NCBI RefSeq assembly: GCF_002761295.1
Contig: NZ_CP017881.1
Coordinates: forward strand, 1,921,750 to 1,985,749
Length of the DNA: 64,000 nt
Direction of reading: 5' to 3'
DNA from: Methanohalophilus portucalensis
Lineage (GTDB): Archaea; Halobacteriota; Methanosarcinia; Methanosarcinales; Methanosarcinaceae
Positions 7,858 through 54,320 of this stretch are shown piece by piece (position 1 is the stretch's first letter; every line of letters starts with the position of its first letter). The notes under the pieces were generated by a model. The model was not told the origin of the DNA. It did no database searches and saw nothing but the letters and a program-made list of their open reading frames with translations. The position numbers and the translations under genes were made by a program.

Positions 7858-9477
7858 ATGAAATTCAATCCTGATAAAATAAGAGAAGATGCCAGCGAAG
7901 ATTTTGACAGGGCCTGGAACGATAGCGCAAAGTATGTCAAAAAGCCTCTGTTCAATGAACGCTACCCTATAACATCAATCAACTATGGTAAACCTCATCC
8001 TGTTTATGATACTATTGCGAAACTAAGGGAAGCCTACCTTCGGATGGGTTTTGAGGAAATGATGAATCCCATCATTGTTGATGAACAGGAAGTGCACAAA
8101 CAATTCGGACATGAAGCACTGGCCGTACTTGACAGATGTTTCTACCTGGCAGGACTTCCCCGGCCAAATGCCGGCATATCCGATGAGCGTATATCTAAAA
8201 TAAAAGAAATGCTGGGAGATCTTTCCACAGAAGATATTGATATGATACGAAAGGTCCTGCATGCCTATAAGAAAGGAGAGATAGAAGGTGACGATCTGGT
8301 TCCCGAAATGGCCGCAAAGCTGGACGTGTCAGATTCCCTCATAGTCGAAGTCATAGATCAGGTGTTCCCGGAATTTAAGGAACTGACACCAAAAGCAGGC
8401 AAACGTACCCTGCGCAGTCATATGACCTCCGGCTGGTTTATCAGCCTCTCAGAGATTCTCAAGCGCCGTGAACCCCCATTCAATTTGTTCTCCATCGACA
8501 GGTGCTTCCGCCGGGAACAACAGGAAGATGCTGCCAGGCTTATGACCTATTATTCAGCGTCCTGTGTTATAATGGATGAGGATGTGACCGTAGATTACGG
8601 CAAAGCTGTTGCCCAGGCCCTGCTATCACAATTTGGTTTTGAGAAATTCCAGTTCAGGCCTGATGAAAAACGCAGTAAATATTACAGTCCAGATACCCAG
8701 ATAGAGGTATTTGCATACCATCCAAAACTTGTAGATTCCAATACCAAATATTCGGATGGATGGGTAGAAATTGCTACTTTTGGAATATATTCCCCGATAC
8801 CTCTTTCAAAATATGATATTCCCTATCCTGTGATGAATCTGGGCCTCGGGGTTGAAAGGCTTGCCATGATCATCCATGAGGCCACTGACCTGAGGGGAAT
8901 GAGCTATCCACAGATGGAATTGTACTCTGAATGGGAGATGTCCGACAGCGAACTTGCCAGACATGTCGAAATTGACATGATACCCGAAACATCTCAGGGG
9001 AGGGAAATATTCGAAGCCATTGTTGAGCAGTGTCAGGTCCATGCATCCGAACCAAGCCCCTGCGAGTTGCCTGCATGGGAAGGGGAAATTGAAGGGCACA
9101 ATGTAAAGGTTTCAGTCATTGAACCCGAAGAAGACACTAAACTCTGTGGCCCGGCTGCTTTTAATGAGATTGTAATTTACAATAACGACATCCTGGGATT
9201 GCCAAATAATAAGAAATGGAAAAAAGCATTTTCCAATCATTCAGCAAGGACCGGTGTCAGGTTTATTGAAGCACTGGCGGCAAAGGCAGCAAGCGAGGTC
9301 GAAGATGCTGTTGCAAAAGACGATACTGAAATTGAAACACGTGCAAGAATAATAAAGACACCTGCAGAAATCAACATAAAACTATCCCCCCTTGCCCAGC
9401 GTTATGTGACCGGCAAAAACAAGAAAATAGACATAAGGGGACCTGTGTTTACCACGATAAAGACAGAAATTTCATGA
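7858..9477 (+). CDS. sepS: O-phosphoserine--tRNA(Cys) ligase (SepRS)
   Basis: SepRS attaches phosphoserine to tRNA-Cys; SepCysS then converts it to Cys-tRNA. This is the methanogen route to cysteine, and the tRNA-Cys substrate lies in the rRNA operon at 20398-20469. The 539-aa class II synthetase has the SepRS start MKFNPDKIREDASEDF, then YPITSINYGKPHPVYDTI, motif 2 in FSIDRCFRREQQEDAARLM (near residue 215) and motif 3 in MNLGLGVERLAMIIHEATDLRG (near 327). The C-terminal anticodon-binding part follows. Its stop TGA overlaps the ATG of the endonuclease V gene (ATGA at 9474-9477), so the two are probably translationally coupled. Confidence 0.95.
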   Translation: MKFNPDKIREDASEDFDRAWNDSAKYVKKPLFNERYPITSINYGKPHPVYDTIAKLREAYLRMGFEEMMNPIIVDEQEVHKQFGHEALAVLDRCFYLAGLPRPNAGISDERISKIKEMLGDLSTEDIDMIRKVLHAYKKGEIEGDDLVPEMAAKLDVSDSLIVEVIDQVFPEFKELTPKAGKRTLRSHMTSGWFISLSEILKRREPPFNLFSIDRCFRREQQEDAARLMTYYSASCVIMDEDVTVDYGKAVAQALLSQFGFEKFQFRPDEKRSKYYSPDTQIEVFAYHPKLVDSNTKYSDGWVEIATFGIYSPIPLSKYDIPYPVMNLGLGVERLAMIIHEATDLRGMSYPQMELYSEWEMSDSELARHVEIDMIPETSQGREIFEAIVEQCQVHASEPSPCELPAWEGEIEGHNVKVSVIEPEEDTKLCGPAAFNEIVIYNNDILGLPNNKKWKKAFSNHSARTGVRFIEALAAKAASEVEDAVAKDDTEIETRARIIKTPAEINIKLSPLAQRYVTGKNKKIDIRGPVFTTIKTEIS

Positions 9478-10145
9478 AAATATTATCCTATTCGGCTTTA
9501 TAGTGGTTCAGAAATCTGCAGGAAGAAATAGGTAGACAGGTAGTCACCACTGATGGGTTTGAAAATATAAAACTTATTGGGGGTGCGGACTGTACCTATT
9601 TCAAAGATCTTGTAATATGCTGTATTGTCGTACTAAAATATCCCACAATGGAATTTGTCGAAAGGACAGTTCATATTGGAAAAATAAGTTTTCCTTATAT
9701 ATCGGGATTTTTTTCATTTCGTGAGGGAGAAGGGACAATAAGAGCCTACCAGAAGCTCAGCCACAAACCTGATCTGCTTATGATCAATGCCTGTGGTACC
9801 ACCCATCCTGCAAATGCCGGATTTGCCTCTCATATTGGAGTGGTCCTGGATAAGCCTACAATAGGGATTACAAAAAGAATTTTTTGCGGCAGGGCAAAAA
9901 TACCACAAAAAGGAAATGAAGCCCAGCCATTATATCATGGAAGAAAACAAAAAGGTTGGCTCCTTAAAGTATTGCCCGAAACAAAACCAATCGTAATTAC
10001 AGTCGGACATCTGACGTCCACCAGGAGTTGCCTGGATATCACAAAAAAGTGCCTGAAAGGAAACAAAATGCCTGAACCATTAAGGATTGCTCATCGATGT
10101 GCAGGAGAAGAGAAAAAGAAATGGGGTAAAAGCAGTGGTACATGA
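9474..10145 (+). CDS. nfi: Endonuclease V with in-frame TAG (candidate pyrrolysine codon)
   Basis: Endonuclease V cleaves next to deaminated bases such as hypoxanthine. From ATG 9474, which overlaps the SepRS stop, the frame reads MKILSYSAL, then TAG at 9501-9503, then WFRNLQEEIGRQVV and on to the full family sequence. The catalytic-Asp motif LIGGADCTYF lies after the TAG but before the first downstream ATG (9648); no ATG, GTG or TTG lies between. Later motifs are FPYISGFFSFREGEG (catalytic Glu kept), THPANAGFASHIGVVLDKPTIGI and VITVGHLTS. If TAG is pyrrolysine the protein is 223 aa, the normal length. The usual second Asp (VDGxG) is Asn here (INACG), so activity is uncertain. A decaying gene is the alternative. 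Confidence 0.7.
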
Positions 10146-52951: not shown

Positions 52952-53164
52952 ATGAGTCTGTTAGAAAAACTCTATAACATCAATGTGGGCTATATCATAG
53001 TAGCGGGGATTGCCCTGACTGCTCTGCTCTTTAAGTTCCTTCTCCAGTATGCCGAAGAAGGAAATTTTGTACTTGTTATATTGCTTGGTCTTGCTATTGC
53101 TTTTGTGGCCACATTAATTACCCGGGTACTCAAGAACCAGCGCTATTTGCAACAGCTTAAATAA
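52952..53164 (+). CDS. Two-helix small membrane protein
   Basis: The 70-aa protein has two hydrophobic helices (about residues 13-31 and 38-57), starting MSLLEKLYNINVGYIIVAG and ending with a basic tail, RVLKNQRYLQQLK. GGGGTGAC just before ATG 52952 supports this start over the longer upstream frame. No family recognised. It converges on the Mrr-type nuclease gene, three bases apart. Confidence 0.65.
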   Translation: MSLLEKLYNINVGYIIVAGIALTALLFKFLLQYAEEGNFVLVILLGLAIAFVATLITRVLKNQRYLQQLK

Positions 53165-53167
53165 CAT

Positions 53168-54160
53168 TCATTCCTTTCCCAGGCCTTTCAGGATTGCCTC
53201 CCTCCATTCAGAGGCGTTTTCCACATCATATATGTGCCTGGTAATACTTTCCTTTGATTCAAGGATTGCAAGTTTATCCTTGTGTAAAATTCCCTGTTTC
53301 TCAATCTCTGCCCCTGCAATATCCTTCAATCTGATAGTTTCGATATTGCCTTTATCCATCATGAGAAATCTGCGGTTGGTAAGCACCAGACAACCTTTTT
53401 TTTCCTATCCAAATTTCAGGAGGGTTTCGCCCCGCAGAAAAGAAGGACGAAACAATTCAAGATTCTCTGCAAAACTTTTCGGTTCCCTGATCGAAAGGGC
53501 CAGTACCTCAGGATTTTTCTCATCTATTACTATATAAAGTGAATTTGTATCCTGTTTCAAACCTATAATCGAACTTGCATCTATTCTCCTGATAAGTTCT
53601 TTTTTCTTTGAGAAAAGGGCAGTAGTTATTTTTTCAAAATAGATATGTTTCTTTGTGAGTACCAGCCAGATTTTGTTCCCTTCAATTGTTGCACTATGTC
53701 TTCCAAACACTTCCTCTCCGGTTTCAAGCACATCAACCCCCCGTCCTTTCCGGTGGAAACTCTCTCCTTCATCAGGACAATAATGATTAAGCATCTCAGT
53801 AAGCAGTGGACCTTCTATCAGCTTGAGATTGTGTTTTGCCCCTTCTTTCCTTCCTTCACCAGTAAAACTGGAAGTAGTAACAATAATTACTCCATCCACA
53901 TTTTCCCTGTAGGACAAACTGCCATATTCACGCACTTCCTTGACCCCCACAGGCCCTGAATAACGTTTGGCCTGGACAAGCCATCGATGGGAAAGACCAA
54001 AATTATCAATAGATATTTCGATATCTACACCACCGTCCCTGCTTTGTTGTGTCGAGCGGGTATTATAGCCCATTTTTTCAAAAAGGTGAGCTACGAGCCT
54101 TTCAAAATCATACGGGTCAATTTTGAGCAGTTGGTTAATTTCCCACATCAAATCATTCAT
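53168..54160 (-). CDS. Mrr-type restriction endonuclease with two PH-like repeats and an in-frame TAG
   Basis: Residues about 15-125 form an Mrr/restriction-endonuclease-like nuclease: FERLVAHLFEKMGY, catalytic Asp in SRDGGVDIEI and QAKRY in WLVQAKRYSGPVGVKEV. Then comes a PH-like repeat (GEEVFGRHSAT, WLVLTKKHIYFEKI). The frame meets TAG at 53405-53407 after GETLLKFG and continues as EKKGCLVLTNRRFLMMDKGN, a second PH-like repeat ending at TGA 53168. The second repeat mirrors the first (GE..., LVLT...), and its first strand lies before the only downstream start (GTG 53386), so one read-through protein of 330 aa, probably with pyrrolysine, is the best model. Start ATG 54160 overlaps the zinc-ribbon gene's stop. 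Confidence 0.72.
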
Positions 54161-54320
54161 CCACGGTATAGGACAGGCCACATTCTGGACAGGAATACGT
54201 TACTGTTGTGGTAGCATTTTTATTTTTATTCTCTATCCTATCCATCCACGTGCCACAGGTTACACATTTCTGATCGAATATTGTTCGGTTGCTTGATTTT
54301 TCACTATCTGCTTTTGTAAT
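54153..54320 (-). CDS. Zinc-ribbon protein with probable AUU start
   Basis: An open frame ending at TGA 54153 encodes two Cys pairs, QKCVTCGTWMD and TYSCPECGLSYTVDE, spaced like a zinc ribbon. It overlaps the nuclease ATG (54160), implying coupling. No ATG, GTG or TTG precedes the first Cys pair before an in-frame TAA. However, GGAGGGG (54326-54332) sits five bases before an ATT at 54320, so AUU initiation giving 55 aa is proposed. A TATA-like ATTTAAAG lies near 54383-54390 for this strand. A nucleic-acid-binding partner of the nuclease is a guess. Confidence 0.5.
   Translation of the reverse strand: MTKADSEKSSNRTIFDQKCVTCGTWMDRIENKNKNATTTVTYSCPECGLSYTVDE

Follow-up and report, generated by a model that had tools for sequence, protein, structure and literature searches.

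In the methylamine methyltransferases MtmB, MtbB and MttB, UAG is read by tRNA-Pyl and PylS, and the pyrrolysine that results is catalytic and conserved. Kivenson et al. (Science 2025) are reported to argue that in some archaea every TAG codon is read as pyrrolysine. Outside the methyltransferases, the tRNA-His guanylyltransferase (Thg1) of Methanosarcina acetivorans, as a secondary account has it, carries pyrrolysine at a dispensable position, which is there put down to neutral evolution (PMC2933860, citing Heinemann et al. 2009). Going by that account, this kind of recoding, at a dispensable site of a non-methyltransferase protein, is already known and not new. A 2013 screen for pyrrolysine genes took in M. 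mahii, and the word endonuclease is absent from its text (PMC3639795). What is new is a nuclease gene of Methanohalophilus portucalensis as a well-supported, not yet proven, predicted pyrrolysine protein. The gene very probably encodes a single protein of 330 residues with pyrrolysine from UAG 252, a codon of probably near-neutral AAG to TAG origin that lies in a probably recombined segment.

The gene lies in the window, by which we mean the whole analysed stretch of 64,000 nucleotides (contig NZ_CP017881.1, positions 1,921,750 to 1,985,749). Translation gives a frame of 330 codons on the minus strand (54160-53168) with a single in-frame TAG at codon 252: an ATG and 250 sense codons are followed by the TAG (53407-53405), 78 sense codons and a TGA (53170-53168). 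The first-pass annotation had described a frame that passes the TAG and runs on without a gap to the TGA at 53168, and the translation bears this out. The features of the locus are as follows.

53168..54160, minus strand: the whole gene, an Mrr-type nuclease and two PH-like domains (translation, orthologue frames)
53789..54127, minus strand: Mrr_cat nuclease domain, residues 12-124 (Pfam PF04471, E 1.4e-30, and alignment)
53456..53710, minus strand: first PH-like domain, residues 151-235, seven predicted strands and a helix (AlphaFold model, repeat homology)
53180..53422, minus strand: second PH-like domain, residues 247-327, with the TAG inside it (model; weak bPH_3 match)
53405..53407, minus strand: in-frame TAG, codon 252, predicted penultimate residue of strand 1 in the second PH-like domain (translation, orthologues, model)
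53384..53386, minus strand: GTG, the first possible internal start past the TAG, at residue 259 within predicted strand 2 (frame and model)
54153..54320, minus strand: conserved zinc-ribbon gene of 55 residues directly upstream, whose last bases overlap the ATG of the nuclease gene (relatives compared)
53161..53520, minus strand: the roughly 360 bp surrounding the TAG, near-identical to Methanohalophilus sp. RSK (pairwise divergence)

Searching 186 genomes of the order recovers the gene as a single frame, matched over most of its length, in 59 genomes including that of the window, with identities from 97% in other Methanohalophilus down to about 35% in another family. A TAG at codon 252 occurs in only two of them, the window genome and Methanohalophilus sp. 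RSK (G110). Because the gene is one frame in 59 genomes and the TAG is confined to two, the continuation of the frame is, on sequence comparison, not due to chance. Four other Methanohalophilus have AAG (Lys) at this codon, and the aligned position is mostly Lys or Arg elsewhere, with isolated instances of Ser, Ile and Gly among the orthologues listed. Homology with the TAG-free orthologues thus holds in frame on both sides of a site where they have a sense codon, as expected of a gene that encodes pyrrolysine. No orthologue split into two genes was found among the 186 genomes; the parts are fused in every full-length case, rather than always being separate genes. One distant orthologue (G118:C67:2547-3539) has an in-frame TGA within its second PH-like domain; this copy, either a pseudogene or an assembly error, has its TGA elsewhere than at codon 252 and was set aside from the comparison.

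The suggestion that similar repeats flank the TAG holds up in both profile-profile comparison and structure prediction. Residues 143-243 and 240-330 align with a score of 27.1 (E 1.5e-4), compared to at most 14.9 in 40 column-shuffled profiles. An AlphaFold model built from 48 orthologues (mean pLDDT 82.7) predicts two complete PH-like units of seven strands and a helix, at residues 151-235 and 247-327, with a pTM of just 0.53 that makes the mutual placement of the domains unreliable. In the model, the second domain opens with a hairpin of strands 247-253 and 256-261, followed by five strands and the helix, and residue 252 is the second-last of strand 1, adjoining the turn at 254-255. The earlier proposal that the UAG residue lies in a loop between strands of the second repeat is therefore right as to its nearness to a turn; the residue is predicted at the end of strand 1, not in mid-loop. 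That this first strand precedes any internal start also stands, as it spans residues 247-253 and GTG 53386 is residue 259. Prediction of the joined sequence yields a complete second PH-like domain that needs residues upstream of this GTG, and thus sequence from both sides of the TAG. Because the first internal start falls in strand 2, a single read-through protein would be the sensible product. The C-terminal part alone, predicted without an alignment, gives a pLDDT of 49 and a model too poor for use. The domains are PH-like by fold only, as the match to bPH_3 (PF14470; 21.0-21.3 bits) is below the curated cut-off of 23. A Foldseek search matched the model to Rtt106 and FACT, at their tandem PH domains, with a TM near 0.3 and an rmsd mostly of 7-9 A; a histone-related role was dropped on these values, which indicate a likeness of tandem PH fold only.

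The genome has the means to read UAG as pyrrolysine. PylS is encoded at 1215942-1216658 (367.9 bits; cut-off 178), a tRNA-Pyl with a CTA anticodon is present, and pylT, pylS, pylB, pylC and pylD are clustered on one strand, with PylB, PylC and PylD named from translation and gene order rather than by a family model. PylS is also found in all seven other Methanohalophilus searched. As positive controls, two mtmB genes hold the classical TAG (context GMAV*GPETS). Use of TAG as a terminator was estimated with a simple gene caller from the window and twelve 20-kb stretches (about 300 kb). The 258 gene endings comprise 126 TAA, 124 TGA and 8 TAG, a deficit of TAG relative to the 18% expected from its share of the three stop trinucleotides (P about 6e-14). 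Three of the eight TAG endings are mid-gene, inside one domain or a conserved frame: those of the nuclease, a PAS histidine kinase and a DUF7289 gene. An extension was counted as read-through only where it carried on the same domain or an orthologous frame; coding-like extensions of at least 70 codons are also seen after about 10% of the genes that end in TAA or TGA, and as neighbouring genes yield such extensions, a long in-frame extension alone is no evidence. Both pylB and a transposase end at or near TAG in this genome. For pylB (8879-9940, minus strand, in 20-kb stretch L072), 39 further open codons run from the TAG into pylC.

The PAS histidine kinase (L078:10510-12144, minus strand) has its TAG inside the PAS domain (PAS_9), and its RSK counterpart (G110:C15:68759-70393) carries the TAG there too; within the genus, the kinase was found only in these two genomes (at E 1e-100 or better). 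Its dN/dS is 0.23 before the TAG and 0.14 over the 291 codons downstream, where dS is 0.31, so that purifying selection acts on either side. Judged by these substitution patterns, the kinase gives direct evidence of an evolutionary kind for translation of UAG outside the methyltransferases in both genomes, and is better evolutionary evidence for pyrrolysine than the nuclease gene. In the DUF7289/DUF7308 pilin-like gene (L076:15200-16612, minus strand), the TAG follows 104 codons and lies in DUF7289. Since the gene is uninterrupted and without TAG in five relatives, this TAG is probably a recent gain as well. A TAG-GAA-AAA context common to the nuclease and the kinase was considered and dropped, as mtmB has TAG-GGC and TAG-free relatives also have GAAAAA.

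The nuclease allele itself appears to have a mosaic history. Comparison of the window genome with RSK gives a dS that drops from 0.34 and 0.22 in the two upstream parts of the gene to 0.02 past the TAG. The 360 bp around the TAG differ at 5 positions, the lowest of all 360-bp stretches in an 8.5-kb comparison with a mean divergence of 5.9%, and other genome pairs show ordinary divergence in this segment. The segment was thus probably exchanged between two Methanohalophilus species by homologous recombination. Common to both TAG alleles are a codon 251 changed from GAA to GGA, a codon 252 changed from AAG to TAG, and two silent changes. Downstream of the TAG, they differ by one silent and one replacement change, too few to judge selection.

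The fused orthologues, the domain layout and the complete pyl genes support the view, put forward before any of these comparisons, of one read-through protein with UAG as a predicted pyrrolysine. On this explanation, tRNA-Pyl would decode UAG 252 and insert pyrrolysine with efficient read-through, and the predicted product would have 330 residues, with an Mrr-type nuclease at the front and two PH-like domains behind it. The codon would have arisen when AAG became TAG at a position in a surface turn that is tolerant of many residues, a change that would be near-neutral because the site is tolerant and UAG is hardly used as a terminator in this lineage; the TAG segment would then have crossed between the two species by homologous recombination.

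The alternative that deserves the most weight, though we regard it as doubtful, is that UAG is read both ways to a relevant extent, giving forms of 251 and 330 residues in a ratio set by the supply of pyrrolysine. It overlaps with the preferred explanation, which requires just that the long form be produced. Termination competes with pyrrolysine at UAG in Methanosarcina, where removal of the PYLIS element from mtmB raised the amount of truncated product, and pylB terminates at UAG in several species, so UAG may be a stop in such archaea (PMC2933860). No PYLIS-like stem-loop was found right after the nuclease TAG (folding z = +0.5), and an Rfam search there gave no match; the missing enhancing structure favours dual decoding, while PYLIS is itself known to be non-essential (PMC2933860). 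Some termination at UAG 252, yielding the 251-residue form, is likely. Against a designed isoform, however, this form would break off within the second PH-like domain with its first strand unpaired and thus looks defective, and four close relatives lack the TAG; it is probably without function. A stronger version, in which UAG acts as a metabolic switch that gives the two-PH form with methylamines and a shortened nuclease without them, and spread because it was useful, we consider very unlikely.

The remaining readings deny that one long protein is made from the sequence as it stands. That the TAG is a true stop, with the protein ending after one PH-like domain and the remainder a decaying remnant, is quite unlikely: TAG terminates in the standard code, and the downstream changes since it arose are too few to demonstrate constraint, but neither TAG species has a broken frame, TAG is strongly depleted among gene endings, the set of pyl genes is complete, and the histidine kinase, the other gene with a shared mid-gene TAG, is under clear purifying selection downstream. 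Two proteins, the first ended by the TAG and the second started anew at GTG 53386 or at the ATGs of residues 267-268, seem highly improbable. The GTG lies 18 bases past the TAG with an AAGG upstream of it, yet TAG-free relatives have the same A-rich stretch, AAGG and GTG, which therefore did not evolve as a start site; moreover, no orthologue in the genomes searched is split, and the second product would begin in predicted strand 2, without strand 1. As for a sequencing or assembly error, AAG and TAG are one base apart, but the independent assembly of RSK, another species, has the same TAG with the same neighbouring changes, which leaves this explanation scarcely credible.

What the protein would do is suggested by its nuclease domain, which scores 106.2 bits against PF04471 Mrr_cat (cut-off 21; E 1.4e-30, residues 12-124). 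The catalytic-type residues D42, G44, D46, Q63 and K65 are unchanged across the 48 aligned orthologues, and the PD-(D/E)xK-type set is intact (D46, Q63 and K65 invariant); because these residues are invariant, the conservation suggests an active enzyme. The domain resembles in sequence and fold those of Mrr_cat restriction endonucleases (PF04471), such as the nuclease domains of MspJI and AspBHI, whereas two PH-like domains here take the place of their known target-recognition domains and the gene sits in a conserved core locus. In most loci read, it is adjoined by a thioredoxin gene and by what we take, from its sequence, to be a methanogenesis marker gene, and the locus is not in a defence island. 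No known anti-phage defence system was matched beyond a generic nuclease, the PADLOC matches spanning residues 5-127 only. As the zinc-ribbon, thioredoxin and presumed methanogenesis marker genes adjoin it, the setting points to a resident gene rather than a mobile defence system. A weak NCBIfam match was discarded (E 0.009, far under its own cut-off).

In the zinc-ribbon frame (54153-54320), none of six close Methanohalophilus has an ATG, GTG or TTG between the prior stop and the conserved part. These species have an ATT directly after GGAGGGG; more distant relatives have an ATG. This gene may genuinely start at AUU.

The nuclease shares with MtmB, MtbB and MttB the predicted reading of UAG by the same tRNA-Pyl and PylS, and differs from them in that its pyrrolysine would occupy a variable surface turn. 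By analogy, the case most likely resembles Thg1, with neutral drift at a tolerant surface position. As far as the secondary account describes that enzyme, both are non-methyltransferase proteins with UAG in few relatives, here at a site tolerating K, R, S, I and G; pyrrolysine was physically observed in Thg1 and is predicted here, and, unlike that of Thg1, the nuclease allele is common to two species, apparently via a short exchanged segment. The rarity of TAG as a stop and the mid-gene TAGs apparently read as sense in ordinary genes recall the code attributed to Kivenson et al., under which the nuclease gene would be an expected example; in contrast to that code, at least two genes, pylB and a transposase, keep an ending at or near TAG in this genome, of which about 300 kb were sampled. 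In these archaea, such genes are split by gene callers that apply the standard code. The nuclease would add to the few pyrrolysine proteins with good support outside methylamine metabolism, and a UAG allele that coexists with UAG-free alleles in sister species, and seems to have moved by recombination, makes the neutral-drift view directly testable.
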